From Odiellus spinosus (lineage: Eukaryota; Arthropoda; Arachnida; Opiliones; Phalangiidae), in assembly GCA_963920705.1 (NCBI GenBank), contig OY987225.1:10636158-10700157 (forward strand): 64,000 nucleotides of DNA, given 5' to 3'. The position numbers and the translations under genes are program-made. A model generated the notes under the pieces. The model did not search any database, was not told where the DNA came from, and saw nothing but the letters and a program-made list of their open reading frames with translations. Of the stretch, positions 7,823 to 32,357 are shown one piece after another (the stretch's first letter is position 1; each line of letters opens with the position of its first letter).

Positions 7823-8660
7823 CCGCTTAGATACCGCGTGAATCCTATCTTCCGGTCCTCCCATTCATCCCCCCTTTTTTTGGCGTTTCTCCCTACCCTA
7901 GGTAGTATCTTTCGTGTACGAAATTGACTAAAAAATCTTCATAAATTATTTGTTTTCCCGACTGAATAGGCTGTCACCCAGAAGTACACGCAAGAACAGG
8001 TATGATTAATTCGATAAACTTATTCTAATTCTCTGCAGATTGAGCCAGTATAATAATTTCGTTAATAAAGGCAGGTTTTTAAATATTTCATTATAGCTTA
8101 TTTTTATCTTTAACAAGGAAGATCCAGCTAATTAATAAGGTGTGAGAACTAAATAAAATTATTTTCAAAAATTTAAGGTCATTTGAAGGCAGTCTTGTCT
8201 TTAGTGACTCATTCTCTAAGCGCTATTCAAGATAGAGCCGGTAGGTAGGACTAGGACTTGTCTGAACTATAAAAGAATTAATAGACGCTAAGACGAGTGA
8301 TTGTTTTAATACAAAGCCTTAATTAAATTCGACTTTTTTTAAATTGTATAAAGACGTTCTTCTACTTTGATATAGAGGAAAATATATTTAAATTTATTTA
8401 ATTATTATTATACTAACCCAATCTGGAGAGAATTAGATGAAGACTGTGTATTTTTTCGTCGTCTTTTCTAACTTTTTTCTATCTTTTAGATTTATCTAGC
8501 CCTAATTTTATTTAAATTTTGGATTGTGGAAAAGATTAATCTAACTGCCATGTCAAGAATTATAAGGTATGGAAGCTTTAAAATTGATTTAATGCCCGAA
8601 GATTTGACCTATTTAAGGAAGAATGCAAACTTATAACAAGTGATTTTTTCTTTATCGTTT
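7823..8660. other. Unassigned AT-rich sequence
   Basis: No ORF over about 60 codons, RNA gene or repeat structure is recognised in this stretch. Confidence 0.5.
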
Positions 8661-8871
8661 AATTAGGCCTAATCGAGGGGTCGGTCATTCAACGAAATCC
8701 CGTACGCTAGCCGCGAAATCAAACTTTAGAATTTTTTTTTTTTATTATTATTACCATCACAATTACAAAATTCAGGTGATATACTACCCACCAAAATAAA
8801 CCAAAGGCTTGTGTTATGTTGAGATTAATTATTGTAATATTAGTTAATATCAAAATCAGAAATCCAGCATG

Positions 8872-9034
8872 AAATCAAAAGAAATTTCGCTGATTTTGAA
8901 ATCAGAAACGAAATCGCGATATCAGAAACGAAATCGCGAAATCAGAAACGAAATCGCGAAATCCGAAACGAAATCACGAAATCAAAAACAAAATCACAAA
9001 ATCAGTAGAAAATTTCACGAAATCAATTTCAAAT
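8872..9034 (+). repeat. 20-bp GAAATC minisatellite
   Basis: Units follow GAAATCAGAAACGAAATCGC, about seven copies decaying toward the right. The 97-codon ORF 8869-9162 is this repeat translated and is not supported as a gene. Confidence 0.85.
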
Positions 9035-9211
9035 TACAAAAATTAATGTTCTTCGATATGAAGCGGGCGGGGTTAAAACGGGAACCCGTGTTAAAACCAA
9101 GTTTACGCTGCTTAGAAAGGCCTGGGCATCGCTTCGACTATCCAATGTTTATACACACTTAAGGTGATATGAATACCTCTCACTTTTTTCCTTTGTAAAA
9201 CAGTAGGGTAA

Positions 9212-9516
9212 GCTGTATCAAGAAGGATCAGACAAGGAGAGGAAAAGTGGGAACGGCGCGGTTCCTACTGCGTCAGCCTAAACTCCCACTCTGGGAGAAC
9301 GGGGGTAGAGATGTTTCGTGGTAAATTGTTGTCACGTGAGTAAAATGGATCCTTTATGAGACGCGTAATTGCCGACGACGCTAGCGACCACGTGACAACA
9401 GTTTACCTCGAGAATTTCCTATCCCCCTTTCCACCCGAGTGGGAGGTTGGCTCTTCTCTCTCTAAATTAACGCAGCCCTACTTTTCCTCTCCTTGTCTGA
9501 TCCTTCTTGGCTGTAT
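9212..9516. mobile_element. 291-bp MITE with perfect 30-bp inverted repeats and 7-bp target duplication
   Basis: The element spans 9219-9509. Its first 30 bases, starting CAAGAAGGATCAGACAAGGA, are perfectly repeated in inverse at 9480-9509. GCTGTAT flanks it directly on both sides (9212-9218 and 9510-9516). Inner sequence pairs further (GTAAATTGTTGTCACGTG against CACGTGACAACAGTTTAC). It has no ORF. The CA...TG ends and the 7- or 8-bp duplication suggest a P-, hAT- or similar superfamily, unresolved here. Confidence 0.85.
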
Positions 9517-10133
9517 CGTGGGAATTTAGTGAGAATTCTCTTCTCAGAAATTTCCCACGGATCCCCTTACTCTTTCCTTCCCCTGAAATAGAGTTAAAAT
9601 ATGAATATGATCATAAAATTATGAGGTTTGTTCCATAAGTGTAGTACTGGTTACTGAGACCTAATCGTGGAGTGACGTATGTAGGTAAAACGTCCAAGAT
9701 TCTTGTAAAGCAACGCCTGATGAGGCATTATCAAGGGTTTAATTAGGGCAGACTTAATTGGGGGACGGACTGCGAGGCACTTGTAGTCAATTCTCGCGTC
9801 GTTCTCGAACAAGCTCTTGGTAGCGATGTCATACTTATAGAATATATCTTAAATGCTAACGCTTTGAGTAAGGTACACTAGCCAAACAAAAGCATGCGCT
9901 TTTGTAGCGCTAGCATTGTGTATTCACGTGCCTGTTTCCCCATTTCATTCCTTTTTCTAGTGCTATGTACGTTTTTTATCGTCTACAAGGTTTGAAACTA
10001 AAAATGCAACTTTGGTTTACGACGAAATCACGGTAAAAATTCCGAAATCCGACGAAATCAGGAGAATTTTTTTCAAAAGCTGACAAAATCAACTGGAAAA
10101 TTTAAAAATCCGAAATCAAACGAAACCCACGCT

Positions 10134-10256
10134 ATGATTTCGAAATCACACGAAATCAACGGAATGATTTCGAAATTACACGAAATCAACGGAATGATTT
10201 CGAAATTACACGAAATCAACGGAATGATTTCGAAATCACACGAAATCCAATTTGAT
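10134..10256 (+). repeat. 30-bp GAAATC minisatellite
   Basis: Four units of ATGATTTCGAAATCACACGA plus AATCAACGGA occur. They translate to a MISKSHEING decapeptide in the 60-codon ORF 10134-10316. The GAAATC core is shared with the 20-bp array at 8872. Confidence 0.85.
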
Positions 10257-10310
10257 TTCGAAATCCCGTACGTTTTTTTAGAAATGTCCTACCCCTCGGG
10301 CCTAATCCAC

Positions 10311-10893
10311 CTATAAGAAAATTTAAAAATGAATATTTAACTAGAAATAAATGAAAAACTTACCACGAAAATCCATAAATTTTTTATTGGTGGATTTAAA
10401 AGATAAGGAATCAATGAAAAAATCACTTATTAGGTTGTATTCTACCTTTTATTATTATAGACTTGTTTTAACTTTGTCGGTTTTTTAAAATAGGCCTGAA
10501 AAACCACCATTTCTTGTTAAGGTCATAGTGGGTCCTGCAGGATCTGTGTGTGATAGTGTTATTAGATCTGACCGATATCTATCAAGAAGGCACTTTACCA
10601 TTTGATACCATCATATTTGAAATTTGAGACTATCAACGATGAACTAAAAAGTGTGGAGGAAATAAGCCCATGTACTGGGGTGGTACTTGTGGATGTAGAA
10701 GTAGATGGGCGAAAGTTATTTAATCACAAAGTTTAGGTATGCGTGGACGAGCATCTTTTTTCTCTCGGATCAATAGCCCTGTTTGGCCTAGGTGCAACAC
10801 TAAGCTTCCGCACTAAACGTATATATTTCGGTGGACCATTATTACAAGAATTTCAGTTAAAAAGGATTTTCAAAACTGAGTAAGGAGTTTATA
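10311..10893. other. Unassigned AT-rich sequence
   Basis: No gene or element end is recognised. Confidence 0.5.
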
Positions 10894-10894
10894 C

Positions 10895-11330
10895 CTTACA
10901 CCAGAGGTATATAATAACCCCCTTCGGGGGGAAGTGTGAAAGGTAGGCAAAATCGACGAACAACAAGTGCCCGGCGTAAATCGCGGCGGATCGGCACACC
11001 GCTTTACTCCCAAAAAATAGTTACACCATTTTGAACCTCACAAAATTTTCCCTACGCACACTTCCGGAACTTGCGAGCTGAAGTCAACCTTCCACTCCAA
11101 TTTAACAGACAGCCTGACTCCTGAGACAGGAAGTTCTAAACACAAACCGAGCCGTCTTTATTGTTTATACAAAGACCATTTACTAGAGTAGCGACATTGA
11201 GAAGTCCAGCGCGAGCTAGTGGCCTAGATAGTCAGCAGCGGGCTCTTGTTGTTCGTGATTTTTAGCATTGGTAGTATAGGGGCTTTCATACTTCCGCCCG
11301 AAGGGGGTTATTATACACCTCTGCTTACAC
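10895..11330. mobile_element. 422-bp foldback MITE with 7-bp target duplication CTTACAC
   Basis: The element spans 10902-11323. The left end CAGAGGTATATAATAACCCC and the right end, read inward, CAGAGGTGTATAATAACCCC share most of about 40 bp. Similarity resumes at ACGAACAACAAG (10957 and 11245). CTTACAC lies directly outside both ends (10895-10901 and 11324-11330). CAGAGGTG-type ends are common in hAT MITEs, although those usually make 8-bp duplications. No coding sequence is present; the ORF at 11246-11428 is incidental. Confidence 0.75.
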
Positions 11331-11559
11331 CAATACTTTATTTTAAAATTTCTTTAATGTATTCTTTTCCAATAATGAAAATCATACAAGGAAGATACAC
11401 ATGGCAAAGAAATCTAAAAACTTTTTAATAAAGTTTAGTTAATACATAGTGGGATGTAAAGGATCCCGACCCAGTGAGAGCTTTCGGTTACGTATAACCT
11501 TTATCAATCGAATAGTTTAAAATCCTAAAAACCTTATCTTTATATACAGTGGACAAGTG
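11331..11559. other. Unassigned sequence
   Basis: AT-rich DNA between the MITE and the Penelope-like fragment. It may include the 3' untranslated end of that minus-strand fragment. Confidence 0.4.
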
Positions 11560-11583
11560 TAAAGGTCGCGACACAAGATTTTC

Positions 11584-12225
11584 TCAAATAACCCCCCATA
11601 ATTTTGATTCCGCGCACCCTTCATCTAAATTTAAATTGTCGAATTTTTTAATAAAAACCCCTTCAATGAATTTTCTTTTATACCAGTTTTTTTCCTTATA
11701 CAAAATACTCGTATCGTCCCACTTAATTTTATGCGCATCTTCCCTCTTATGTTTTAAGATATGAAATGCTAACCCATTTTCTTTATCACCCTTATCAACA
11801 CATTTTTTATGCTCATTAATTCTATCTCGGAATCTACGTTTTGTCTCCCCAATATATGATTTTTTACAACTACAATCTATCTTATATACTATTCCAGAAT
11901 TTTCTATGACAGGTACGTTTTTTGTTTGTTTACATTGAAAGAGATTTTTTAGAGTACCGTTGTTGTTACTTACTAATTTAATATTGAACTGGGAATCAAG
12001 AATTCTGGCTAATTTTTCAGTTTTTTCTTTAACATAGGGTAATACTAGTGGTTTGGGTTTTTGTTCAATTGTAATATTATTTTTAACATTGTTAAAATTA
12101 AAGATATTATCAATACAGTTTGGAGGGTAGTTTGAATTAATTAACTGTTTTTTAAGCAAGTTTTTATCAGCGATAGGGTTGTATGATTTTCATTATTCAT
12201 CTGTTCCATGGCTTTTTCAAATTTT
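11584..12225 (-). pseudogene. Penelope-like element fragment: linker plus GIY-YIG endonuclease
   Basis: The 191-residue frame (12159-11584) encodes LPYVKEKTEKLARIL at residues 40-54, a linker typical of Penelope-like retroelements. A GIY-YIG nuclease domain follows, with GIVYKI at 89-94, a CSC pair, YIGET at 102-106 and the RRFRDRINEH helix ending near 117. In these elements the nuclease nicks the target for reverse transcription. The frame is open upstream only to about 12200 and no reverse transcriptase is present, so this is a 5'-truncated copy. Its truncated side abuts the terminal hairpin of repeat copy C at 12227. The C-terminus ends with a normal stop. The sequence could still encode a standalone nuclease fragment, but no promoter or other supporting signal is visible. 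Confidence 0.8.
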
Positions 12226-12226
12226 T

Positions 12227-12260
12227 ACCTCCCCGACTGAACTTTAGTTCAGGGGGAGGT
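12227..12260. other. 34-bp terminal palindrome of repeat copy C
   Basis: ACCTCCCCGACTGAACT faces AGTTCAGGGGGAGGT. It is the reverse complement of the hairpin at 1549-1582 with almost no changes, much better conserved than the bodies of the repeats. Confidence 0.75.
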
Positions 12261-13440
12261 GTTACACTGGTCGTATCTGTGTGTCTGTCTGTGTGTCTGT
12301 CTGTGTGTCTGTCTGTGTGTGTAAGCGGATATCCTGTGTAAACGGAAGTCACGTGACCTAGCTCGTGGAGCCAAAAGTCTAGAGACGTAATCATACCAGC
12401 TTATCGTTCAATTCCGGGGAATTACCTCCTTTAAGCGTGGCTGCCACATTGAGTTTCAAGTGTCGTGCAAAGACATACAACAGGACGTCTCCCATTGCAC
12501 ATCATCGCATTCCACCATCCACTTTACGGTCGAACCTCGATGCTGAACAGCCGAAGGCGATAACAAGCAATGGGACGTCTCCCACTGTCATAATCACTTC
12601 CGACCATCCCCGCACCAAGGTCCAACCTCCAGTTTCCGATCTCAGCGTTCCATACTAGCGAGGCGTCCCCCACTAGTACAGTTCACATCAACCTTCCACT
12701 GACTCCAAACATCGCCCCACCAATGGGTAAATTGCGTCGCCAAGCGCCTAGAGATCAAGAATCAGCAAGACATTGAAAGGGGGGGGGGGGTTTTCCCCCT
12801 AACTTCATGGCCATCACGCACGGTTACTTCGATTAATATAGCCCTTCGAAAGGTTTATATAGTATCTTTTTGGAACGTATGCAAATTAGCCTCATGGGGT
12901 GATTTTGTTTGATATTGTTTAGGGAAATGAAACGCAATATTAATTTATATTATAATTAAAAATATTAAAATGGTTCATCTTAATCTAATTAATTAGAAAG
13001 TCGAAAAATTAATTTAAAATTCGAGATAGTTTAGAAGTTATTTGAGAATTTATGCAAAAATTTAAAGAAATTTGACCGATTAATGGCAGTTTTAGTTGGC
13101 AGCATGCGCCTAAGCTATTTTCCATATATATCATTTACTCGAAAAAGCAAAGGTATAACGGGCAGTATAGGCTTATCTCTGGTGCAAACTTGGGGTGGAT
13201 TGAAGAACTTAAATAACGGTGCGTTTACACGGGTATGGAAGATTGAAACAACATAATTTAGATAAGAGATAAGACAATAATAACTTCGATTATACTCGGT
13301 GAATTTTTAACCAGTTCAAGGGGAATTGGTGTATAAGATTTGAAGCTGAGGCGGATTTATGCATAATGTTAAACCACTTAAGAAAAATGATAGTCGTGAA
13401 AACTCTCCTCGAACAGAAGTAGAGTAGGTTTCCAGTGTAT
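12227..13440 (-). repeat. Hairpin-ended interspersed repeat, copy C
   Basis: This is the longest copy, inverted relative to copy A. It starts with the 34-bp palindrome (12227-12260). A GTCTGTCTGTGT microsatellite, GCGGATATCC, TTTAAGCGTGGCTGCCAC, the CATCAACCTTCCACT block, a G-run at 12780 and the GGGGTGGATTGAAGAA block follow. It ends at TAGGTTTCCAGTG near 13436. It carries about 75 bp between 13240 and 13330 that copy A lacks. The ORFs at 12437-12658 and 13290-13604 are repeat sequence, mirrored by the ORFs at 1192-1401 and 425-649. Confidence 0.75.
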
Positions 13441-13738
13441 TTGTGACACGTGTAAAATCGAGTTCGCCAGCACGCGAGTATGTGTAGACCACTAAATTTG
13501 AAGTCGGAAACCTCTTTACGCATGGAAAATATCAATGTGATTTTTTTTGATATTCTTGGGAGAATCAGCTTCATGTATGGGGAAATATCGTAATCTTCTG
13601 GCAAACTTGCAAACAGTGGCGTATTTGGTTTTAATTACTGGCACGGATTTTCAAATTAATTTTTTTATAATTTTCGCGCGTTTCGCAAATGTATTTCGTG
13701 CGAAATTGTGTACATGCGCAGAGCGAACCAGGTTAACG
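13441..13738. other. Unassigned sequence
   Basis: A 77-codon plus-strand ORF (13547-13780) is present without a recognisable motif. No other feature is seen. Confidence 0.4.
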
Positions 13739-14240
13739 CGGATACACACAGACCTGTTTTTACGCGTTTCACGCTCGTGAACTCATAGAAGTACCATTAG
13801 CACGCGCGAGCGAGGTGCAAACCACTCTAGAAAAATTTTGTACACCTGATTCCAGATTCATTTGATTGTCAGTGATTCCGAATCAATTCGCGTGATTCCG
13901 AATTGATTCGTGATTCCGAATCGATTCTCGTGATTCCGAATCGATTCGCGTGATTCCGAATCGATTCGCGTGATTCCGTATCGATTCGCGTGATTCCGTA
14001 TCGATTCTCGTGATTCCGAATCGATTCGCGTGATTCCGAATCGATTCGCGTGATTCCGTATCGATTCTCCTGATTCCGAATCGATTCGCGTGATTCCGAA
14101 TCGATTCGCGTGATTCCGTATCGATTCTCCTGATTCCGAATCGATTCGCGTGATTCCATTTAGTTTGTACACCTGATTCCAAGAGTGGTTTGCCCATTGC
14201 CCCTCGCGCGTGACCGTGAAAATAGGTCTGTGTGAATCCG
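13739..14240. mobile_element. Foldback element with a minisatellite core
   Basis: The left arm (CGGATACACACAGACCTGTT at 13739, then TTTCACGCTCG and GCAAACCACTCT) is mirrored on the right (CAAGAGTGGTTTGCCC, CGCGCGTGACCGTGAAAATA, GGTCTGTGTGAATCCG to 14240). Inside the arms the 17-mer TTGTACACCTGATTCCA occurs in direct orientation near 13843 and 14166, bracketing the 20-bp tandem array. No target duplication is convincing. Confidence 0.6.
13873..14158. repeat. 20-bp GATTCCGAATCGATTCGCGT minisatellite
   Basis: There are about 14 tandem units with A/T and G/C variants (CGTATCGATTC, TCTCGT, TCTCCT). Twenty is not divisible by three, so all minus-strand frames translate to the same 20-residue repeat. 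The three overlapping minus ORFs (13858-14251) are artefacts. Confidence 0.9.
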
Positions 14241-16075
14241 GCTTTAGTCATGCCACAATTAACAATTGACGAACTTTCTTAAACCGGATTGACATTGAAA
14301 TTTCTCGTGTTTTAATAGTCATGTATGATATGGTTGACCCAAGAGTGAAATGTAGACAGAGTGAGGAAAAGAATCACGTGATTGGATCTCGTGATGACTG
14401 CTAGTTTTAGTTTCACACTTTTTCATACATGAATTTAATGTTAATCCCAATTAAGTATAATAGAATCAGGCTTTTAATGCCTACTGTCGTGTATTTCCGG
14501 TAACATTTTAGCTAGTGTGGAGTCACGTAAAATGACGTTTGTTTCACAACTTGGTATATTTTTACTCAGGCCTGCCCTGTCAGAAAAAAAAAATATAAAA
14601 AATTTATGGTAGGGCCAAAAGAGAAACATCTATTCTTTACTCACAGCATTATCACCAAAAAACGTGTTTTTAGACGTAGGCTTATAAGGTATCTGTAGGT
14701 CGTGTAGCACCAAAAAGCGAAATTGTACGTCACAGTTCGTAGTTTAGCGTGTTATGCGGAAAGCTTATTCGTTAATTGTTTATTGAATATGTTTATTTAC
14801 GGTTATATGACGATACCGAGGTCATAACTTGATTTTGATGAAATATTTTGCCTAATGACGTTACTTGGTCTACAAATACTCTAGTTTTCTTAACGCCGAT
14901 ATTATTTTACTGAGGGACCTTGACCTTGCTTATCAAAATTTTAATTTATTGAACGTAAAATCGTTTCATTTCTTTTGAAATCTTCGACGAAGTTTGTTCT
15001 CTAGAGATTTGACTCGTTGAAATTTTAAATTAAGTTTCATTCGTTTGAATACAATTTATTGGTAAGGAAGTAATTTTGAATTTGAATCATTTATTTGATG
15101 CGTTTATTATTTGTTTGGACATTTTTGGTATATTTTCATTGACCTGAACTCTAATTTTTATTACTGAGTTGTGACTGAAATATTAGTTTGGAAATCAAAA
15201 GGTTTTTTTTTTTCTGACTCATTTTTCTCTGTAGTAATTTTTTGTTTTCGTAAAAGAGTTATTAATGCCTACTGTCGTTTATTTTCGGTGATGTTTTAGC
15301 TAGTGTGTAGTCACGTAAAATAACGTTTGTTTCACAACTTGTGTTGTATACTGAAGCCATGTATAGGTTCAATTTGATATAACATTTTGCCTTTTCACGT
15401 TACTTGGTCTACAAATACTCTACAACCGTCAAAATTCTGATATGGTTTTAAAAGAAGAACCTTGACCTTGTGTATTTAATCTCATATCGAGATTAAATGT
15501 TTTTCGCATCTAATTTTAATTGGTTTATCAATATGTTATTTGTATAGATATTTTTTTTAAGATTTTATATTTTTTAGATTAAAATAAATTTATTATTCCA
15601 GAAGATTTTGTAGAATCTAGTTCTCAGGATTACCGGTGTTGAAAATTTATTTTGCTAATGTTATCTTGATGTCTGTGTTTTCTGCCCGCTATTTGGTAGT
15701 GGTAAGATTAATATTTTTAATTTTAATTAATTGACTTATTTGGCGTTTATTTGATAATTTGCTTTACTTAAATTGTTCGTGTAAGGGCTATTTTACATAT
15801 TACCAAAGATTGCTAATTTCAGTTGTCTTAATTCTGATTTTTTTGTTTTAATACTGAATTATGGACTGGATTATTTATCTTGAAATCTATGTGGTTATAT
15901 CTTATTTATTTTCCTTTTTTTCTCTAGTTAGGTTTGGTTTTAAGTAGAGAATTATTTAGGGTTGTGTTGGTATACTGAAGAAATGCATATAGGTTCAATG
16001 TGATATAATATTTTGCCTATTTCGCTGTTTCTTCTACTCATCCAATACTCTACATTTCTTTTCATCTTTTATTTT
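14241..16075. repeat. AT-rich region with three diverged direct copies of one segment
   Basis: TAATGCCTACTGTCGT, GCTAGTGTG-AGTCACGTAAAA and GACGTTTGTTTCACAACTTG at 14475-14560 recur at 15268-15342. TTTTGCCT followed by TTACTTGGTCTACAAATACTCTA occurs near 14848-14884 and 15387-15422, with a weaker version at 16010-16055. ACCTTGACCTTG follows at 14920 and 15459. There are no ORFs. The stretch may be intronic or upstream DNA of the exon at 16171. Confidence 0.6.
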
Positions 16076-16152
16076 AGGTAGGGTTAGGTTAGGTTAGATT
16101 ACCTTAACGTCGGGGTCGGGGAGGTTATATTTTGGTTTCCCAACTTGTAATA
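16076..16152 (+). repeat. Direct repeat left of the hexapeptide exon
   Basis: The sequence ATTTTAGGTAGGGTTAGGTT, then GTCGGGGAGGT and TATTTTGGTTTCCCAACTTGT recurs at 21568-21636. A weaker copy lies at 20920-20975 (GGTTAGGTGGGG, then ATATTTTGGTTTCCCC). It lies immediately upstream of the open frame containing the zinc knuckle. Confidence 0.7.
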
Positions 16153-16170
16153 TTTATATTCTTTTCCAAG

Positions 16171-19100
16171 TTACGGTGAATCAGCTGTTACATCCACACG
16201 GAAATTCTCTTCAAAGATACAGTGCTTTGCTTGCCGCCAATTTGGTCACATGAGGGCTGAGTGTAGAGTTGGGAGTGCCTCGAAACAAAAATCTATCGGC
16301 CAAACAAATTGTAGTTTGCCATCTCGAACAACCGTGCCAGTTTCAAGTTTGCCATCTCAAATAACTGTGCCGGTTTCTAGTCTGCCATGTCAAATAACCG
16401 TGCCGGTTTCTAGTTTGCCGTCTCAAATAACCGTGCCGGTTTTTAGTTTTCCATCTCAAATAACTGCGCCGGTTTCTAGATTACCGTCTGAAATAACCGT
16501 ACCAGTTTCTAGTTTGCCGTATCAAAGAACAGTGCCAGTTTCTACTTTGCCATCTCAAACTACTGTACCGGCATTGAAATCAAACCCATCAAACAACGAC
16601 CAATATATCATGGAACTAGATGATGATATTGAAATTGATGAAGACGTACTAATTGCAATTGAAAATAAGTCTATGGCCGAAAGTCAGGCGTCTCATCTAT
16701 CTCAATTATCCCAAGATATTCAGTTTTCGCAAGATGTCATGGTTACCCTAGAAATCGAGTCGTCGCAAAAAATCGAGTCGTCGCAAGAAATCGAGTTGCT
16801 GCAAGAAATTGAATCATCGCAAAAGATGGAATCGTCGCAAAAGATGGAATCGTCGCAAAAGATGGAATCGTCGCAAAAGATGGAATCGTCGCAAAAGATG
16901 GAATCGTCGCAAAAGATGGAATCGTCGCCAAAGATGGAATCGTCGCCAAAGATGGAATCGTCGCAAAAGATGGAATCGTCGCCAAAGATGGAATCGTCGC
17001 CAAAGATGGAATCGTCGCCAAAGATGGAATCGTCGCCAAAGATGGAATCGTCGCCAAAGATGGAATCGTCGCCAAAGATGGAATCGTCGCCAAAGATGGA
17101 ATCGTCGCCAAAGATGGAATCGTCGCCAAAGATGGAATCGTCGCCAAAGATGGAATCGTCGCCAAAGATGGAATCGTCGCCAAAGATGGAATCGTCGCCA
17201 AAGATGGAATCGTCGCCAAAGATGGAATCGTCGCCAAAGATGGAATCGTCGCCAAAGATGGAATCGTCGCCAAAGATGGAATCGTCGCCAAAGATGGAAT
17301 CGTCGCCAAAGATGGAATCGTCGCCAAAGATGGAATCGTCGCCAAAGATGGAATCGTCGCCAAAGATGGAATCGTCGCCAAAGATGGAATCGTCGCCAAA
17401 GATGGAATCGTCGCCAAAGATGGAATCGTCGCCAAAGATGGAATCGTCGCCAAAGATGGAATCGTCGCCAAAGATGGAATCGTCGCCAAAGATGGAATCG
17501 TCGCCAAAGATGGAATCGTCGCCAAAGATGGAATCGTCGCCAAAGATGGAATCGTCGCCAAAGATGGAATCGTCGCCAAAGATGGAATCGTCGCCAAAGA
17601 TGGAATCGTCGCCAAAGATGGAATCGTCGCCAAGGATGGAATCGTCGCCAAGGATGGAATCGTCGCCAAGGATGGAATCGTCGCCAAGGATGGAATCGTC
17701 GCCAAAGATGGAATCGTCGCCAAAGATGGAATCGTCGCCAAAGATGGAATCGTCGCCAAAGATGGAATCGTCGCCAAAGATGGAATCGTCGCCAAAGATG
17801 GAATCGTCGCCAAAGATGGAATCGTCGCCAAAGATGGAATCGTCGCCAAAGATGGAATCGTCGCCAAAGATGGAATCGTCGCCAAAGATGGAATCGTCGC
17901 CAAAGATGGAATCGTCGCCAAAGATGGAATCGTCGCCAAAGATGGAATCGTCGCCAAAGATGGAATCGTCGCCAAAGATGGAATCGTCGCCAAAGATGGA
18001 ATCGTCGCCAAAGATGGAATCGTCGCCAAAGATGGAATCGTCGCCAAAGATGGAATCGTCGCCAAAGATGGAATCGTCGCCAAAGATGGAATCGTCGCCA
18101 AAGATGGAATCGTCGCCAAAGATGGAATCGTCGCCAAAGATGGAATCGTCGCCAAAGATGGAATCGTGGCCAAAGATGGAATCGTGGCCAAAGATGGAAT
18201 CGTGGCCAAAGATGGAATCGTGGCCAAAGATGGAATCGTGGCCAAAGATGGAATCGTGGCCAAAGATGGAATCGTGGCCAAAGATGGAATCGTGGCCAAA
18301 GATGGAATCGTGGCCAAAGATGGAATCGTGGCCAAAGATGGAATCGTGGCCAAAGATGGAATCGTGGCCAAAGATGGAATCGTGGCCAAAGATGGAATCG
18401 TCGCCAAAGATGGAATCGTCGCCAAAGATGGAATCGTCGCCAAAGATGGAATCGTCGCCAAAGATGGAATCGTCGCCAAAGATGGAATCGTCGCCAAAGA
18501 TGGAATCGTCGCCAAAGATGGAATCGTCGCCAAAGATGGAATCGTCGCCAAAGATGGAATCGTCGCCAAAGATGGAATCGTCGCCAAAGATGGAATCGTC
18601 GCCAAAGATGGAATCGTCGCCAAAGATGGAATCGTCGCCAAAGATGGAATCGTCGCCAAAGATGGAATCGTCGCCAAAGATGGAATCGTCGCCAAAGATG
18701 GAATCGTCGCCAAAGATGGAATCGTCGCCAAAGATGGAATCGTCGCCAAAGATGGAATCGTCGCCAAAGATGGAATCGTCGCCAAAGATGGAATCGTCGC
18801 CAAAGATGGAATCGTCGCCAAAGATGGAATCGTCGCCAAAGATGGAATCGTCGCCAAAGATGGAATCGTCGCCAAAGATGGAATCGTCGCCAAAGATGGA
18901 ATCGTCGCCAAAGATGGAATCGTCGCCAAAGATGGAATCGTCGCCAAAGATGGAATCGTCGCCAAAGATGGAATCGTCGCCAAAGATGGAATCGTCGCCA
19001 AAGATGGAATCGTCGCCAAAGATGGAATCGTCGCCAAAGATGGAATCGTCGCCAAAGATGGAATCGTCGCCAAAGATGGAATCGTCGCCAAAGATGGAAT

Positions 19101-20749
19101 CGTCGCCAAAGATGGAATCGTCGCCAAAGATGGAATCGTCGCCAAAGATGGAATCGTCGCCAAAGATGGAATCGTCGCCAAAGATGGAATCGTCGCCAAA
19201 GATGGAATCGTCGCCAAAGATGGAATCGTCGCCAAAGATGGAATCGTCGCCAAAGATGGAATCGTCGCCAAAGATGGAATCGTCGCCAAAGATGGAATCG
19301 TCGCCAAAGATGGAATCGTCGCCAAAGATGGAATCGTCGCCAAAGATGGAATCGTCGCCAAAGATGGAATCGTCGCCAAAGATGGAATCGTCGCCAAAGA
19401 TGGAATCGTCGCCAAAGATGGAATCGTCGCCAAAGATGGAATCGTCGCCAAAGATGGAATCGTCGCCAAAGATGGAATCGTCGCCAAAGATGGAATCGTC
19501 GCCAAAGATGGAATCGTCGCCAAAGATGGAATCGTCGCCAAAGATGGAATCGTCGCCAAAGATGGAATCGTCGCCAAAGATGGAATCGTCGCCAAAGATG
19601 GAATCGTCGCCAAAGATGGAATCGTCGCCAAAGATGGAATCGTCGCCAAAGATGGAATCGTCGCCAAAGATGGAATCGTCGCCAAAGATGGAATCGTCGC
19701 CAAAGATGGAATCGTCGCCAAAGATGGAATCGTCGCCAAAGATGGAATCGTCGCCAAAGATGGAATCGTCGCCAAAGATGGAATCGTCGCCAAAGATGGA
19801 ATCGTCGCCAAAGATGGAATCGTCGCCAAAGATGGAATCGTCGCCAAAGATGGAATCGTCGCCAAAGATGGAATCGTCGCCAAAGATGGAATCGTCGCCA
19901 AAGATGGAATCGTCGCCAAAGATGGAATCGTCGCCAAAGATGGAATCGTCGCCAAAGATGGAATCGTCGCCAAAGATGGAATCGTCGCCAAAGATGGAAT
20001 CGTCGCCAAAGATGGAATCGTCGCCAAAGATGGAATCGTCGCCAAAGATGGAATCGTCGCCAAAGATGGAATCGTCGCCAAAGATGGAATCGTCGCCAAA
20101 GATGGAATCGTCGCCAAAGATGGAATCGTCGCCAAAGATGGAATCGTCGCCAAAGATGGAATCGTCGCCAAAGATGGAATCGTCGCCAAAGATGGAATCG
20201 TCGCCAAAGATGGAATCGTCGCCAAAGATGGAATCGTCGCCAAAGATGGAATCGTCGCCAAAGATGGAATCGTCGCCAAAGATGGAATCGTCGCCAAAGA
20301 TGGAATCGTCGCCAAAGATGGAATCGTCGCCAAAGATGGAATCGTCGCCAAAGATGGAATCGTCGCCAAAGATGGAATCGTCGCCAAAGATGGAATCGTC
20401 GCCAAAGATGGAATCGTCGCCAAAGATGGAATCGTCGCCAAAGATGGAATCGTCGCCAAAGATGGAATCGTCGCCAAAGATGGAATCGTCGCCAAAGATG
20501 GAATCGTCGCCAAAGATGGAATCGTCGCCAAAGATGGAATCGTCGCCAAAGATGGAATCGTCGCCAAAGATGGAATCGTCGCCAAAGATGGAATCGTCGC
20601 CAAAGATGGAATCGTCGCCAAAGATGGAATCGTCGCCAAAGATGGAATCGTCGCCAAAGATGGAATCGTCGCCAAAGATGGAATCGTCGCCAAAGATGGA
20701 ATCGTCGCAAAAAATCGACTCGTCACAAATTCAGTCTTCTCAAATTTGA
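16171..20749 (+). CDS. CCHC zinc-knuckle protein with 216 tandem MESSPK-type hexapeptides (probable 3' exon)
   Basis: The frame is open from 16151 to the TAA at 20747. The first ATG (16250) lies inside a CX2CX4HX4C zinc knuckle (codons at 16223-16264, CFACRQFGHMRAEC), so the true start must be in an upstream exon. TTCTTTTCCAAG at 16159-16170 is a plausible splice acceptor. Counting residues from 16250: residues ~24-111 hold eight copies of an 11-residue repeat (SLPSQITVPVS type). Residues ~120-145 are an acidic linker (MELDDDIEIDEDVLIAIENK), and ~150-192 are degenerate S/Q repeats. Residues 193-1488 are 216 hexads: MESSPK mostly, MESSQK at copies 1-6 and 9, four MESSPR and thirteen MESWPK. 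The tail is IDSSQIQSSQI. CCHC knuckles bind nucleic acid; each hexad gives a Ser-Pro site and is charge-neutral. The function is unknown. It could be a host gene or a domesticated gag-like gene. Confidence 0.6.
16310..16575 (+). repeat. 33-bp repeat within the exon (11-residue units)
   Basis: Eight consecutive in-frame units of TTTGCCATCTCAAATAACCG plus TGCCGGTTTCTAG encode the SLPSQITVPVS type. They differ by scattered substitutions, some silent (ACT/ACC, GTG/GTA, CCG/CCA). This makes them older than, or under different pressure from, the downstream 18-bp array. Confidence 0.85.
16817..20713 (+). repeat. 18-bp coding minisatellite, 216 units
   Basis: The unit is AAGATGGAATCGTCGCCA, almost invariant over 3.9 kb. 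Variants are contiguous: CAA for CCA in the first copies, four AGG units near 17634-17695 and thirteen TGG units at 18167-18390. Contiguous variants indicate growth by local duplication. The unit has no stop codon in any of five further frames, so the long shadow ORFs on both strands at 16.7-20.8 kb have no independent support. Confidence 0.95.
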
Positions 20750-20761
20750 CTGATTTGATTG

Positions 20762-20811
20762 AATAAAATTTAATGGCAATTGAATGCCATTTTCATGGAA
20801 AAATAAATAAA
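20762..20811 (+). promoter_or_regulatory. Candidate polyadenylation signals
   Basis: AATAAA occurs at 20762-20767, 13 bases after the stop codon of the hexapeptide exon, and again at 20802-20807 and 20806-20811. In AT-rich DNA these are weak evidence alone, but their position fits a 3' end. Confidence 0.4.
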
Positions 20812-21100
20812 ATCAGATTATGCATATATTGGTGTTAATATTTTCAAGACTATGAATTTAGAAAAAATAGTTTTATATATACAAAACCTTCAATGCAATG
20901 ACACACTTTGAAGTAAATTAGGTGAGGGTAGGTTAGGTGGGGTACGAAAAAGGGTAATATTTTGGTTTCCCCATTTTATTATTTCGTAACTCCGAAACTT
21001 TTATAAAAATTTATTTCTCGTATTTGATAATAAATACGTATCGAGACATTATTCTTTTATAACATTTAATTATCTTTAAAAAGTTAAACGGTTGATGATG
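20812..21100. other. Short intergenic stretch with a weak copy of the flanking repeat
   Basis: At 20920-20975 it holds GGTGAGGGTAGGTTAGGTGG followed by ATATTTTGGTTTCCCC, related to the repeats at 16076 and 21568. Nothing else is recognised. Confidence 0.5.
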
Positions 21101-21550
21101 TTAAAGGGAGAATGAAAGGCTGAAACAACCTATTTTTAATCAATTAAGAATGCTAAAATAATTAGAAAAACAATAATATAACTCACCAAAAATATTTCGG
21201 TATTTTAAAATCAAATTCCAAAGTTCCGAAACTTGAAGGTGCCCAGCTCCGCGAACTAGACGAGCACGAACCGTTTTTTTTTTTTTTTTTTTTTAATATT
21301 TCCGTAAGAACTGGTCGCCCATCACGAGCAAGTACGCGTATTTTTAAAATACGCAAATTCACTCGTGATTAGCGACCAGTTCTTACAAAAAAAAAAAAAA
21401 AAATACGGCTCGTGCTCGCCTAGTTCGCGGAGCTGGGCACCTTCAAGTTTCGGAACTTTGGAATTTGATTTTAAAATACCGAAATATTTTTGGTGAAGTT
21501 ATATTATTGTTTTTCTCATTATTTTAGCATTCTTAATCGATTAAAAATAG
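21101..21550. mobile_element. TTAA-flanked palindromic foldback element, copy 2
   Basis: It starts with TTAA at 21101-21104 and AGGGAGAATG. It runs through the same near-palindrome as copy 1 (CCCAGCTCCGCGAACTAG, AAGAACTGGTCGCC, a centre around 21340, then the mirror image) to AATCGATTAAAAATAG at 21549. The last ~37 bp of the right arm, present in copy 1, are missing. Homopolymers flank the inner arms (a T-run near 21272 and an A-run near 21387). This copy supplies the unoccupied site for the Helitron in copy 1. Confidence 0.8.
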
Positions 21551-23551: not shown

Positions 23552-24889
23552 TCATGGTACCGGTGAGTATCGATCAGGTTTAGCTAGAAGGCGTCCATAC
23601 GATAATCTAATCGGAAACGGGGGTCTTGGTCGGCTCAGTGCCTGTGGCTGTTGAGGATCCAGTGGTCTCGTGCTGTCTTGGGGAAGTTGTTCTCGTGGAG
23701 AGGTTTCTCCTTGCAATGACCTGTGACCAGCTCCTTGTTTTCCGAGCTTTGTTTGATCATGTGAACTTGCTTCAGTTGTTTCTGACCATGGTTTAATGGA
23801 TGTGGTCCTTCGTGTTCCTGTGACAGTTCTGGCTTGTTGGAGAGAGTGTTGTGGTGGTTCTGGGTACTCTCCGTCTCTGTGTTGATGTGCCGTGGCCTTG
23901 ATGCCAGGTGGCTTCAGTGTGGATCCTGCTCCCAGTGTTTTGATTCGTGACGGTCTGCTTTGCGTTTGATGTGGTTGTACGGCGTGCTGTATGTTAACTC
24001 TATTTGTTGCGTTGGTGTTTTTGTCCTGGGTGGAACGTGGTAAGAGATTAAATGGTTCATATCTAGGTCGTATGTGGGTTCTGGTTCTACGGAAAGTCTT
24101 ATTGTCTTCATTTAGTTGTATGTACGAGTCTGGGGTGTGCTCGTGATTTGCAATTATCGCTGGTCTCCATTTCCAATACCAGACTTTGTCTCCTTTTTGA
24201 AGCCTAGTTAGTGGTTTGTTGGGACGGTTGCTGGCTTGGCGAATCATTTGGTGCTGCCGTGTCTTTAATGCCTTTGTGATCTCTCTTGTCGGATAGTTCG
24301 GTTTTAAGGTGTTTGCATGAGTAGTGATTGGAGTACGGAGTTTTCTGCCCATGAGCATTCCCGACGGTGTTAGCAAGTTTCCCAAGGGAGTGGAGCGGTA
24401 TTCCAGAAGAACATGATTTAAATCTTTCCCTTCCGTTTGCGCTTTTGTCAAAAGATTCTTGAGCGTCTGCACCATTCTTTCAGCAGGACCATTACTTTGG
24501 GGATGGTACGGGCTGGCGGTTACGTGGTTTACTCCCCAATTTTGTAGGAAAGTTGAAAACATGTACGACGAGAATGGGGGCCCATTATCGGAAATTAGCC
24601 GTTGGGGTATTCCATGTCGCGAAAATTGAGCGACCGTGAATTTTATCACCGCCTCGGCATTTGTTGATGACAGTTCTTGCACTTCTATGAATTTTGAGTA
24701 ATAATCTATCAGCAATATGAAGTTTCTTGAGTTCCATTTAAAAAGGTCCCTTCCTACGGTTTGCCACGGTAAGTGTGGGATCTCCATTGGCCGTAAGGGT
24801 ATGTTTATATTGGCGACATCTCGTTGTCGGCATGTAGCGCAGGTTTTTATGTAATTTGTAATATCCGACGTCATTCCCGGCCAATACAC
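23552..24889 (-). pseudogene. gypsy pol, integrase portion
   Basis: The 445-residue frame starts YWPGM, as in gypsy integrase zinc domains, with CATC at 17-20. The catalytic triad is D48 (VGRDLF), D101 (SDNG) and E137 (NGPAERM), giving 35 residues between the last two. A C-terminal SH3-like region (GDKVWYWKWRPAIIA) and a long proline- and glutamine-rich tail follow. Integrase joins the element's cDNA to host DNA in the nucleus. It is in the same frame as the preceding reverse transcriptase/RNase H segment, 12 codons after a TAG stop at 24926-24928. It was therefore part of one polyprotein, and the start at 24889 is not a real start. The integrase domain itself has no internal stop. Confidence 0.9.
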
Positions 24890-24925
24890 GTTTAGCCGTG
24901 CCTTCGCCAGACAAGCGGTTATGCC

Positions 24926-26068
24926 CTAATGTACTCCATGTATCTGCGCCATAGTGTCTATTCGTTGTGACCATGGGATTATTAGCCTCTCCCCTCTATA
25001 TAATAGTCCTCCGTGTTCAAATATTTCCTCTTGCAATGGCCAGTAAGTTTGAGTTGTTGGAGATCTGATCGATGATCTGTGCTTTGGCCAACCATTCCGG
25101 GAGTATGTCAGCACGTGTTGGAGATCATGATCCGATGCTGTGGCTTCCTGTAATTTCATAGTACGGTCCGTCGATAATGTGACCAATGAATAGACGGCTG
25201 CTGTCGGACCTTCCAAGAAGTCCGTGGACATTGTAACTTCAGTGTTCGGTGCCCGCGACAAGGTGTCCGCGATATATAGTTTACTGCCAGGTATATACAC
25301 GAGTGTTGGGTCGTAGCGGGCCAGTCTTAATGTCAGTCGCTGCAGTCGAGGCGATAGTAAGTGAAATGGTTTATTTATAATGGCCAGCAGCGGCTTATGA
25401 TCCGTTTGTATGGTTATATGTCCCGTGGCTATGAAGTACTTGAAGCACTCACATGCATAATATACTCCTAACAGCTCTTTTTCTATTTGCGCATAGCGTG
25501 TTTGAGTGGGGGAAAAAGTCATGGATGCGTACTCCACAGGTTTCCCCTCCTGCAGTAAAACTGCCCCTATGCCGTGTTGGCTGGCGTCCACTGATATGAC
25601 GTTTGCTGCGGTCGGATTGTAGAACGCCAAAACTGGAGCGGTTGATATGGCAAGCTTCAGGTCATCACATGCTGCTTGAAGGTTTGCATCCCATTGCAAT
25701 AGTACATTTTGCTTCATCAGAGATCTTAGGAGAGCTGATCTTTCGGAATAGGCAGGTATAAATCTGGCTAGAAAGTTTATCATGCCTAGGAATCTAAGTA
25801 GGGCTGGTTTGTCTGGTGGCGGTGGGAGCTCAGTGATTGCGCGTACCTTTGCCGGATCTGTCGCTATGCCTTTTGGGGTGATTATATTTCCCAGATAAAT
25901 TATGCGTTGAACTGCCAGCTGCATCTTTTTTGAATTGAATTTGAGTCCAGTTCTTCGCGCTCGCTCTAGAATTTGATAAAGGGTTTCTTTATGGTCGTCA
26001 TGGGTTTTCAGTTGTATCAAAAAGTCGTCGGTGGATGTGTTTATTCTGTATTCCTGCAAAGGTTTCAT
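24926..26068 (-). pseudogene. gypsy pol, second half of reverse transcriptase plus RNase H
   Basis: The frame begins at the catalytic box of the reverse transcriptase, where the two aspartates are present (TDD) but the upstream residues are disturbed. It continues with KTHDDHKETL, GLKFNSKKMQ and YLGNIITPKGI, then the thumb region with RFLGMINFLARFIP. RNase H follows: ISVDASQHGIGAVL with the first aspartate, the QIEKELLGV glutamate and TDHKPL. YIPGSKLYIADTLSRAP follows. The segment ends at an in-frame TAG (24926-24928) just before the integrase zinc domain. The frame differs from the protease/fingers segment, and the two overlap at 25998-26068. Confidence 0.9.
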
Positions 26069-27044
26069 TCATTATCCGTTCACAATATTCAGATGCGGTC
26101 GCAATGCCAAAGGGTAACCGTGTGAATCTGTATTTTCCAGCGGGAGTGGCAAAAGTACAGAGGAATGAGCTTGCGGTTGTTAATTCTATTTGCCAGAAGT
26201 CTGATTGAACGTCCAGGACCGAGAATACCGTAGAACCCGACAGTTCGGCGAATATTTCCTGCGCAGTTGGCATGGGGTAATTTTCCCTTTTAATTGCCTG
26301 ATTTAAGTTTCGTGGGTCTAGGCATATACTCAGTTTTGCATCTGATTTTCGGACTACCACCATTGGATGAACCCAGTCGGTTGGTTCTGTGACGGGTACT
26401 ATTACCCCTGCTGCTTGCATTCTTTGGATCTCGGCTTGGACTTGATTTTGAAGTTGAATCGGTATTTTCCTGGCGTTTGATATCGAAGGAATAGCGCCAG
26501 TTTTTAACTTTATTTCGTAGCGACCTGGTACTTTACCGACGGTGACAAAAACATCGGAGTGGTGAGTTACCAGTGCCTCGGGTGATAACTGACGTAGTGC
26601 TGGTGGTATTGTTATGGCATCAATTCTGTGACTATTGTGTTCCCCTTGTGTCGATCGGAGAGTCGTGCGTGGAGTTTCCTTTCCTGGAGTTGCTACGTAT
26701 AATGTATTAGGAAGTCGTGATATCAGTCCAAGTTGCAAAGATGCTGATCCACCAATTATTGGTATGTGGCTATTCGTCGTGACGTAAAATGTCAGTAATA
26801 GAGTTGTCTGGGCGGAGGAACATGGTATCTTGATCATTACTCTAATGTTGACTGTGTGTCCGGAATAAGCCCTTATTGTGTGCGTAGGTGCTTGGGTGAC
26901 TGGTGGATTGATGATCTGTTTGTACATGTATTCTGGTATTACATTCACTTGAGAACCAGTGTCAATTTTAAATGCGTATTTTTTTATTGCCGAGGGAGAG
27001 CGGGGCCATCCAGATTCTATCGCCCTGTCTCCTTGAGTTGTCAT
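25998..27044 (-). pseudogene. gypsy pol, protease and first half of reverse transcriptase
   Basis: An aspartic protease motif KIDTGSQVNVIP has its DTG at residues 28-30. The reverse transcriptase begins near residue 225 (DWVHPMVVVRK), with LDPRNLN at 242-248, the first catalytic aspartate in SVLDV (D278) and RLPFGIA at 309-315. The frame ends in unrelated residues at about 334-348 because of a small deletion or insertion around 26020-26035, exactly before the second catalytic aspartates. This inactivates the polymerase of this copy. The open frame begins after a TAA near 27080 and is in a different frame from gag, with about 77 bp between the gag stop and the first ATG. Confidence 0.9.
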
Positions 27045-27120
27045 CAGGTATCGTCGTATAGAGTGTTAGTGAACTAAGGTATAGGTACGTATCGTTGTCC
27101 TCACATGAATCTGCCATCCT

Positions 27121-28095
27121 TCAAGGCATTTCAGTGCAATTTGCTGGTTGGTCATACCCGTCGTCGTGTGGTAAATTGGCTTCTAGGGTATTAACTGAAC
27201 GGCATGCTTTGGCCCAGTGATTCAAACCACCGCACGAGCGACAGGTGGAACCCATGGCTGGGCATGGTCTTGACTGATGAGAATTTCTGCATCTGTTACA
27301 AGGTTGAGATGAGTTCGCATAGCGTGTTTGTGCCTTTGGAGTGTAGAGTGACCTAGTTCTAGGCCGATAGGTGTACTGAGAGGTGGTTGCTTGGTAGTGC
27401 GAGTTACGCGATCGGAATCTGTTCGGAAATCCACTCGATCTTTGGCTTACGCGCGGGTTTGGTTGTTCGTGACGTGGGCGTTGGTTGAAGTTCCTGGTTA
27501 GAGCGTGTAGCGTGGTAGTTGAAGTTTCCGCCGTCGTGAATGACGATCTAGTCGGGTGGATTACTTGAGCTTGTGCCACTGACGTCTCTTCGGATTGTGC
27601 GATTGTTATTGCTTCAGGTAGCTGTAGGTCGTTGATTTTGAGCAGCAGACGGCGAACCTCTGAATTGTTGGTGCCTACCGCTATTTGTGTGGCTATTAGA
27701 GAGTTTTTTAGCTCACCCAAGTTACATTCCGTTGCTATTGTTTGTAACTGTGTGAGGAATGAGTCGAATGAATGTTGTGGCGCTTGCTTGCTTGTGATCA
27801 GATTATACCGAGACATCGTGATGCTCCGATATGGTTTGTAGAACGCGTCAAATTGGTCATATATTGTTACGAGTGTGCGTTCGGGTTCCGGAATTGTGAA
27901 TGGTAATGTTTTGTAGATCCGTAAGCCCTCTGTGCCAATGACGTGCTTGAAGACGTTTATTTGATGTGCTGGATCGTCCTTAGTCAATTTGGACGCTGCA
28001 GCGTAGAGTTGAAATCGTTCCTTGTAAGCCTCCCAGGCCTCAGCTGGCTTTGATCCCGGTATGAAGACATCTGGACTCTTGAACGACGTTGTCAT
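27121..28095 (-). CDS. gag: gypsy gag (intact reading frame)
   Basis: 324 residues. The N-terminal ~180 residues resemble retrotransposon capsid (WEAYKERFQLYAAA near 21-34, then a helix-rich domain). The C-terminus is basic and holds two zinc knuckles: CNRCRNSHQSRPC (266-278, CX2CX3HX4C) and CRSCGGLNHWAKAC (285-298, CX2CX4HX4C). Gag forms the cytoplasmic particle and packages element RNA. The start ATG at 28095 is about 105 bp from the nearest primer-site copy. The same start region is repeated, truncated at about 58 codons, in 28323-28600. Confidence 0.9.
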   Translation of the reverse strand: MTTSFKSPDVFIPGSKPAEAWEAYKERFQLYAAASKLTKDDPAHQINVFKHVIGTEGLRIYKTLPFTIPEPERTLVTIYDQFDAFYKPYRSITMSRYNLITSKQAPQHSFDSFLTQLQTIATECNLGELKNSLIATQIAVGTNNSEVRRLLLKINDLQLPEAITIAQSEETSVAQAQVIHPTRSSFTTAETSTTTLHALTRNFNQRPRHEQPNPRVSQRSSGFPNRFRSRNSHYQATTSQYTYRPRTRSLYTPKAQTRYANSSQPCNRCRNSHQSRPCPAMGSTCRSCGGLNHWAKACRSVNTLEANLPHDDGYDQPANCTEMP

Positions 28096-28200
28096 TTTGC
28101 GGTGTTAATTTTTTTTTCTTTTCTATTATTTCACTAATTTTATTAAACCGCGACTAGGTTAAAAATGCATTTGCGTTCTTTTATCCCGCTTCTGTCACCA

Positions 28201-28844
28201 TGTTGTAAAGATTTACTACACGTTTACTCGTTTTATCATTACCGTGTTTATTTTAATGTCTTTACATTTACAGTGATTATTCATACTGATTAATTCTTAT
28301 CTCTGTCAGAGCTAAGGTCACCGTAAGCCCTCTGTGCCAATGACGTGCTTGAAGACGTTTATTTGATGTGCTGGATCGTCCTTAGTCAATTTGGACGCTG
28401 CAGCGTAGAGTTGAAATCGTTCCTTGTAAGCCTCCCAGGCCTCAGCTGGCTTTGATCCCGGTATGAAGACATCTGGACTCTTGAACGACGTTGTCATTTT
28501 GCGGTGTTGATTTTTTTCTTTTCTATTATTTCACTAATTTTATTAAATAGCGACTGGGTTAAAAATGCATTTGCGTTCTTTTATCCCGCTTCTGTCACCA
28601 TGTTGTAAAGATTTACTACACGTTTACTCGTTTTATCATTACCGTGTTTATTTTAATGTCTTTACATTTACAGTGATTATTCATACTGATTAATTCTTAT
28701 CTCTGTCAGAGCTAAGGTCACCTCGTATCGTTGTCATTTTGCGGTGTTATTTTTTTTTTTTCTTTTCTATTATTTCACTAATTTTATTAAACCGCGACTA
28801 GGTTAAAAATGCATTTGCGTTCTTTTATCCCGCTTCTGTCACCA
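28201..28844 (-). repeat. Rearranged 5' leader: two partial LTRs and three primer sites
   Basis: 28201-28322 is the first 122 bp of an LTR. 28323-28600 repeats 27921-28200 (leader and gag start). 28601-28730 is the first 130 bp of an LTR, and 28731-28844 repeats 28089-28200. Each LTR piece keeps the edge next to the primer site. Junctions share two bases (CC near 28322; CG near 28730), as in template switching or microhomology joining. The partial LTRs match the 3' LTR at three sites where the 5' LTR differs. Confidence 0.85.
28827..28844 (-). other. tRNA primer-binding site of the gypsy element
   Basis: On the coding strand, TGGTGACAGAAGCGGGAT directly follows the 5' LTR. It begins with TGG, the complement of a tRNA CCA end. 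The tRNA is not assigned with certainty. The same site occurs next to both partial LTRs (ending at 28200 and 28600). Confidence 0.75.
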
Positions 28845-29053
28845 TGTTGTAAAGATTTACTACACGTTTACTCTTTTTATCATTACAGTGTTTATTTTAA
28901 TGTCTTTACATTTACAATGATTATTCATACTGATTAATTCTTATCTCTGTCAGAGCTAAGGTCACCTCGTATCGGCTAGCCACCTATCGGTAGCTTTCCT
29001 GCGGGTAGTGTACTTTGCCCCTATCAGTGACCCTTGCTCTGACATACACAACA
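28845..29053 (-). repeat. 5' LTR of the gypsy element
   Basis: 209 bp, same ends as the 3' LTR, followed on the right by the duplicated target AAAAG and the resumed 14-bp satellite. Confidence 0.95.
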
Positions 29054-31433: not shown

Positions 31434-31563
31434 TAATTTCTGGTTAATTATCTTAATCTAGGTGAGTTAAATTTGATTCTCATTTTTAAATTATTAGTAG
31501 AATAAAACCTACGAGCTCTGCCAGATAAGGATACGATATAAAACTGAGATTAATAATTTAGTC

Positions 31564-32357
31564 ATGGTCAGCGATAACAAACAAAAAACTATGGATCTAA
31601 TTTTAGAGGAGCTTAAAAAAATGAATGCAAAAATAGACAACAATCAAGCAGAAATGAATACAAAAATAGATAACAATCAAGCACAAACGAACACGAGACT
31701 AAACGTAGTAGTGACAAATCTAGCGGAGTTAAATACTAAGTTAACAGGGGTAGAATTTAAAATAGCAAATCTAGAAACCAGGACAATAGATCTGGAAAAC
31801 ACAATGGTACAATTAACGGGATTAGAATATGAAATGAACGAAGTTAAAGATCTGTTTAAAGAAGAAAAAATAAAGATGTCTAAGGAGATTAGTAATCTAA
31901 AGTTCAGGACCGAGAATCTCGAAGTCAGAGCTAGACGGGAAAACATAATAATTAAAGGAATTCTTGATAACGAAAATGAAACTCGTGAAGGTTTGGCTCA
32001 AAAATTAATCGACTTATTCCAAAATGTTCTAAAGCTAGAAATTCAGGTCAAACCGAGTCAAGCATATAGAAGGGGAGTATTTAAGAAGGGTAAAAATCGA
32101 TATATAGTGTTCCTGGCTGGCTCTTACGATTTAAAACTAAACATTTTAAAAAACGGGCCGAAATTTCATTGAAAGGGAAAAATATCTACATTGACCACGA
32201 CTATACACCAGACCAAGGAACAGCCAGGTACACTCTGCGTACCTTTGCCAAAACAAAACTCCCCGAAAAACATAAATTTATTAGTGTAAATCAAATGATC
32301 ATTGGGAATACAAAATACAAATATGACTTCGAGAAGCAAAAAATTATAACTATATAA
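31564..32357 (+). pseudogene. LINE ORF1: coiled-coil RNA-binding protein, frameshifted
   Basis: Residues 1-120 are a heptad-rich coiled coil with repeated KIDNNQAEMNTKIDNNQAQ units and leucine/isoleucine spacing. A conserved RRENIIIKGI-type motif near residue 128 and a basic domain follow, as in L1- and CR1-type ORF1 proteins that trimerise and coat element RNA. The first frame stops at 32170-32172; the second (32169-32357) continues the conserved C-terminal part (IYIDHDYTPDQGTARYTLR). One frameshift near 32160-32170 therefore breaks the gene. It stops just before the mariner insertion at 32382. Confidence 0.8.

Follow-up and report, generated by a model that had tools for sequence, protein, structure and literature searches.

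The zinc-knuckle exon with 216 tandem hexads in Odiellus spinosus is likely the end of a recently disabled member of a multi-copy gene family

We analyzed a 64,000-nucleotide stretch of the Odiellus spinosus genome (the window; C1:10636158-10700157 of an assembly of 443 Mb in 286 contigs), focusing on an exon at 16171-20749 of the forward strand that encodes a CCHC zinc knuckle followed by 216 hexapeptides of the MESSPK type. This exon can be explained because homologues exist in the same genome, and we consider it likely to be the terminal exon of a gene copy that belongs to a multi-copy protein-coding family and was disabled recently. The homology, the shared intron point, the purifying selection on the N-terminal domain (N-domain), the frame-keeping arrays and the lesions of the window copy are established observations.

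The last exon and its hexad array

The exon lies in an open frame of 1532 aa (16151-20749, +) and, as a last coding exon, holds the knuckle, a series of 11-residue repeats, an acidic motif, the hexad tail and a TGA stop (20747-20749), with AATAAA shortly downstream (20762-20767). The first-pass annotation had placed all of these elements in one frame, which was confirmed. The knuckle (CFACRQFGHMRAEC, 16223-16264) fits CX2CX4HX4C; its scores against Pfam zf-CCHC (PF00098), 18.4 bits (E 0.0023) and, in a second scoring, 18.8 bits, are below the curated cut-off of 20.8. Ribosomal_TL5_C on the 11-mers (E 0.00025) and zf-C2H2_10 on the knuckle (E 0.00071) gave better E-values than zf-CCHC, yet each was below its own cut-off. 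The 33-bp repeat encoding ITVPVSSLPSQ (16312-16559; 7.5 copies by Tandem Repeats Finder, TRF) consists of seven clear units and a partial one, so that the eight repeats counted earlier reduce to seven and a fragment. The acidic motif, MELDDDIEIDEDVLIAIE, is found at 16610-16663 and has similar counterparts in paralogues; a comparison by eye set the paralogue forms DDVEIDEKLLNSIE, DDGFEIDEEILSQIE and DEPLEVDEDVLSQIE beside the window form DDDIEIDEDVLIAIE.

The array itself (16811-20724, +) comprises 192 MESSPK, 13 MESWPK, 7 MESSQK and 4 MESSPR hexads, and TRF describes it as 18 bp x 217.4 with 99% matches and 0% indels, only 11 distinct 18-mers being present among 222 parsed units. Hexad variants are clustered in blocks, S-Q hexads are located near both array ends, and many S-Q dipeptides occur between the acidic motif and the first S-P hexads; the whole open reading frame (ORF) contains 196 S-P and 20 S-Q. 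Five of the six frames over 16811-20724 are stop-free and the remaining one has a single stop. Since a stop-free 18-bp unit stays open wherever it is repeated, an open array is not evidence of coding, and because the array alone proves nothing, the coding argument rests on the paralogues. Furthermore, the first in-frame ATG of the exon is at 16250, within the knuckle, with none upstream of it, and therefore the last exon by itself cannot yield the knuckle.

A paralogue family in the same genome

The N-domain exon of the window was joined to the knuckle exon as a protein and searched in the same assembly, which gave 65 matches at E<=1. Outside the window, 36 matches span at least 75 residues of the N-domain region with 39-64% identity, including the sister copies L009 and L010 described below. 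Twelve loci of 9.9 kb and two of 4.9 kb were fetched. The N-domain exon is stop-free in 17 of 21 paralogue rows, with L041 as an eighteenth if it is cut at the donor; a downstream CCHC is uninterrupted in 18 of the 21, has a stop inside in one and is absent from two. The knuckle exon begins with [R]YGE in most rows, and most have an intron at the same point. The paralogues share the N-domain, mostly the intron at this position, the CCHC knuckle and the acidic motif; many of them have a repeat tail as well. The window stands as a separate branch of a protein tree, without support for its position, and the most divergent sequence is L032, whose ORF continues across the position of the intron. 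Head-to-head pairs of family members, 1-2 kb apart, were observed in L035 (6016-8932) and L039 (4260-7060), and similar ones on contigs C183 (twice) and C264.

Eleven N-domain sequences have 23 invariant columns. Ratios of nonsynonymous to synonymous divergence (dN/dS, NG86) for 16 pairs were 0.09, 0.12 (two), 0.14, 0.16, 0.18, 0.22, 0.27 (four), 0.40, 0.96 and 1.64, with saturated dS in the other two; the nine pairs with dS >0.1 range from 0.09 to 0.40, which argues that the family codes. Repeat periods assigned by TRF were compared in ten family loci, leaving aside L040 and L041, and in the window: 16 of 16 arrays inside family exons have a period divisible by three versus 16 of 56 outside (Fisher p 1.5e-7).

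The window copy and its lesions

The gene copy in the window extends over about 8550-20749, with 16171-20749 as its final exon. A tentative first coding exon at 8550-8566 (+; ATGTCAAGAATTATAAG, encoding M-S-R-I-I-R and followed by GTATGG) is suggested, short of proof, by conservation with L009 and by analogy; L035 and L039 members that lack the first intron begin with MSSILTEKPPF. The N-domain exon (10494-10879, +) encodes a domain of ~130 residues that is broken in the window, and it is followed by an intron of 5291 bp (10880-16170, +; GTAAGG...CCAAG). The predicted donor, CTGA/GTAAGG (10879/10880), and acceptor, CCAAG/TTACGG (16170/16171), join in frame as ...FKT-DYGES..., so that the intron is placed between FKT and YGE, the family's intron point, in agreement with the earlier proposal that a transcript would splice into about 16171. 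The same intron measures about 67 bp in L010 and L011. In L009 and L011, the DNA that directly precedes the knuckle is matched by 10498-10903 of the window, and most of the window's 10.9-16.1 kb is therefore extra intron DNA, which terminates in a high-copy repeat at about 16000-16156.

Two lesions interrupt the N-domain exon. Compared with L009 and four intact paralogue rows, the exon is 7 bp short at the 10588/10589 junction, which causes a frameshift, and an in-frame TAG at 10734-10736 replaces a sense codon of L009, L010, L011 and the aligned paralogue rows. The reading frame of the window N-domain is thus not intact, and for this reason the window copy is unsupported as a current protein-maker. 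The first-pass annotation had inferred a coding, nucleic-acid-binding protein; the frame is or was coding and the knuckle recurs in the family, while current protein production did not stand, given the missing 7 bp and the TAG. The window copy is probably a recently disabled gene, and it is possible that the two N-exon lesions are assembly errors. Between the window and the broken sister L009, dN/dS of the N-domain is 0.51 at dS 0.18.

Differences specific to the window in comparison to the sister copies, counted irrespective of the direction of change, amount to seven nonsynonymous and one synonymous in the knuckle region, the former including TAA/CAA at 16301, and to four of each kind in the linker. 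These differences show no sign of recent purifying selection, although the numbers are small and the sisters themselves broken.

Two high-copy repeats have their ends at 16000-16156 and 21098-21200 and abut the gene copy on either side; each has at least 30 copies among the scored candidates, with 94-100% identity.

Sister copies of the last exon

A search of the assembly with the last exon revealed six other loci, L009-L014 (four on C1 and one each on C185 and C45), all of which carry stops or frameshifts. Five were aligned, leaving out L013, which is nearly identical to L012. The hexad array is absent from these five; they have two or three 11-mers and several S-Q in their tails. The knuckle is kept in L009, L010 and L011, which have in common a 1-bp deletion as well as a TAA in the position corresponding to 16301. 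Stops or frameshifts of relatives in the knuckle and 11-mer region had been named beforehand as evidence against coding; they were found in these three sisters, whereas distant paralogues keep the knuckle and tail in frame.

Matches to the 11-mers only, on C14 and C3, turned out to be unrelated repeats in L016 and L017, and L015 gave no match. L010 contains, at 2888-4544, an upstream block with an uncharacterized 257-aa ORF; this block was considered as a missing exon and rejected, as it is a separate dispersed repeat with matches at no fewer than 30 places.

Library searches

No relatives of the N-domain were detected in Pfam, NCBIfam, PHROGs and PDB sequences, apart from a few chance-level matches. 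At the sequence level, weak knuckle scores were the sole resemblance to gag or capsid in the same libraries, and the four PDB sequence matches are nucleocapsid knuckles with E 0.49 or worse. Against 5.8 billion proteins, the last exon had no match at E 10, nor did the N-domain alignment A1 or a neighbouring repeat ORF at E 1, all three being weak negatives from collections that may hold few insects. Pattern matches in viral contigs and prokaryote genomes yielded no relative by tblastn. AlphaFold, run on the single sequence of the window N-domain, returned a mean predicted local distance difference test score (pLDDT) of 51.7, too poor for a fold search, and an abstract-level literature search found no paper on such a family. 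The earlier statement that no described family has this layout is accordingly narrowed: the family is present in this genome and absent from the libraries searched.

Alternative explanations

It is conceivable, although we regard it as unlikely, that the window copy is a living gene for a giant hexad phosphoprotein, either using another first exon or appearing broken through assembly errors. The open exon, its splice signals, the stop and AATAAA all agree with this, and one paralogue, which combines 246 hexads with a stop-free N-domain, shows that an open gene can tolerate an array of this kind. Set against these are the two N-exon lesions, the lack of an in-frame ATG ahead of the knuckle, the damage in six of six sister copies, and the fact that seven of the eight window-specific differences in the knuckle region are nonsynonymous. 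An ordinary non-coding minisatellite, open by chance, is disfavoured and highly improbable. Many other arrays exist in the window and the fetched loci, including 26 kb of a 14-bp satellite, and nearly all frames of the hexad array are open; however, its position, frame and flanking motifs match the coding tail of the paralogues, and the frame is kept in all 16 arrays inside family exons.

A more serious candidate, which we nevertheless doubt, is that the family represents a mobile element's coding gene, gag-like in its N-domain and nucleocapsid-type knuckle, and not a host family. Tens of copies are dispersed in the genome, selection among copies would fit a transposon gene too, and a 4.28-kb unit, present in six copies, carries the family gene as its main ORF content: its ORFs of at least 115 aa are the family gene's exons and one antisense overlap only. 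The six occurrences have a right end of 96-100% identity, and a seventh match reaches 81%. However, BLAST detected no terminal repeats on this unit, and its flanks are common to several copies beyond the apparent ends; a clean transposon boundary was not upheld, and the shared flanks agree better with segmental duplication than with a clean transposition event. The 12 long loci were not seen to share any polymerase, integrase or transposase ORF, and the absence of gag or capsid matches reported above also speaks against an element. Most copies keep the intron and so are not retrocopies. L034 has a dUTPase ORF (PF00692) and other ORFs that we take to resemble Maverick-type elements; neither was seen in the other long loci.

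For the disabled-copy reading, several observations point the other way. The window N-domain is otherwise well preserved, with dN to other subfamilies of 0.30-0.38 in comparison to 0.38-0.43 between intact members, so that either the death of the copy was recent or the lesions are assembly errors; the last exon, in turn, is open for 220 codons ahead of the array. N-domain stops are present in L027, L028 and L040 as well. The frame ends soon after the knuckle in L020 and L041, and the minus-strand member of L035 (L035 minus) has no knuckle, which indicates that knuckle and long tail need not co-occur. The dN/dS values of 0.96 and 1.64 come from pairs that are very recent and differ by few changes. 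In the period test related copies enter repeatedly, about eleven remaining by unit type, and an array that overlaps a gene edge was excluded. The enrichment of [ST][PQ] in the tails, given below, is weak and concerns hand-picked units.

Repeat tails across the family

Tail units vary among the subfamilies: TQLSSS/TPLSSS in L030 and L031, SPVDPA/T in L035 and L039, SPDEPS in L023 and L039, TAQNA and GSQAS in L033 and L034, QTSES in L038, QPSTS in the broken L040, and MESSPK in the window. In L032 and in L036/L037 the tail unit is longer and occurs only two to three times. L035 minus (C274, about 993-998 kb) has a stop-free N-domain and a 1540-aa exon that ends in SSQEIF and contains 246 hexads (197 PVDPTS, 45 PVDPAS and 4 PVEPAS); consequently, the window array has a counterpart of similar scale. 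In a hand-made list, [ST][PQ] occurs in 10 of 11 repeat units versus 6.2 expected from composition (P 0.009).

A working member probably opens with a short start and continues with the ~130-aa N-domain, and most members then have an intron ahead of 'YGE'. A single CCHC knuckle and a tail follow, the latter with an acidic motif and often also a short tandem peptide, mostly with [ST]-P or [ST]-Q. Judging from this anatomy, the knuckle would bind single-stranded RNA or DNA, the acidic motif could serve as a docking site, and the tail may be a disordered, multivalent scaffold that proline-directed or ATM/ATR-type kinases would tune. It could grow freely by slippage or unequal exchange because whole-codon units preserve the frame, and in the window the array probably survived its gene. 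We further propose, with somewhat less than even confidence, that these genes constitute a new nucleic-acid-binding family with an undescribed N-domain, in which each branch has acquired its own in-frame S/T-P or S/T-Q tail of pentads, hexads or 11-mers. On this proposal, spacing, disorder and phosphorylatability of the tail would be maintained and its sequence would be unconstrained. The family presents a natural series, in which a single conserved front domain is combined with many unrelated tails that vary in unit, length and age, from hardly any repeat in L032 and L036 to roughly 250 hexads, and in which one can ask what low-complexity tails conserve and how coding minisatellites arise, lengthen and die. 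The window copy probably represents the last stage, with the array persisting after gene breakage, and it cautions against taking a long open array for a working protein.

Likeness to known systems

The window knuckle resembles CCHC zinc knuckle proteins (PF00098) in its CX2CX4HX4C pattern with Gly before His; unlike them, it scores below the cut-off and is accompanied by an N-domain that has no Pfam match. Retroviral and retrotransposon Gag proteins likewise have an N-domain followed by one knuckle and exist in many copies, whereas the family gave no capsid match, showed no shared pol in the 12 long loci and no terminal repeats on the 4.28-kb unit, and most copies contain an intron between the N-domain and the knuckle. 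The carboxy-terminal domain of RNA polymerase II is a long array of YSPTSPS heptads with regularly spaced Ser-Pro. The window array is similarly long and regular in its Ser-Pro; however, it is built of hexads, contains no YSPTSPS and is attached to no polymerase body, and thus the likeness is one of composition only. SQ/TQ cluster domains, found in DNA-damage proteins, are defined by at least three SQ/TQ within about 100 residues. Dense S-Q occurs at the edges of the window array and in the tails of the sister copies, and the window ORF reaches this density, but inside the array P replaces Q. Among fast-evolving coding minisatellites, the PRDM9 zinc-finger array (PMC8925151) is also a coding tandem array that changes by whole in-frame units, although it consists of zinc fingers and the window array is a low-complexity tail.

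Neighbouring repeats

The intron of the window copy contains a GIY-YIG-like ORF (11584-12189, -), presumably of Penelope or Penelope-like type; a Pfam scan of the window gave no GIY-YIG match for it. Downstream of the gene copy, 23552-28104 (-) contains what we take to be a Gypsy-like element. Its gag-like ORF has a knuckle that scores 18 bits against PF00098, under the cut-off, and its pol-like ORFs are spread over several frames. Tandem duplications of 400 bp and 244 bp are located at 27919-28974. Pieces of a broken non-LTR (long terminal repeat) element extend over 31501-36811 and include a coiled-coil-like ORF, an endonuclease (PF03372) and what is presumably a reverse-transcriptase-like ORF. 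A 14-bp satellite, AAAAACACGATTTG, occupies 37583-64000 and reaches the window end; it measures at least 26.4 kb, with about 1870 copies at 95% matches.

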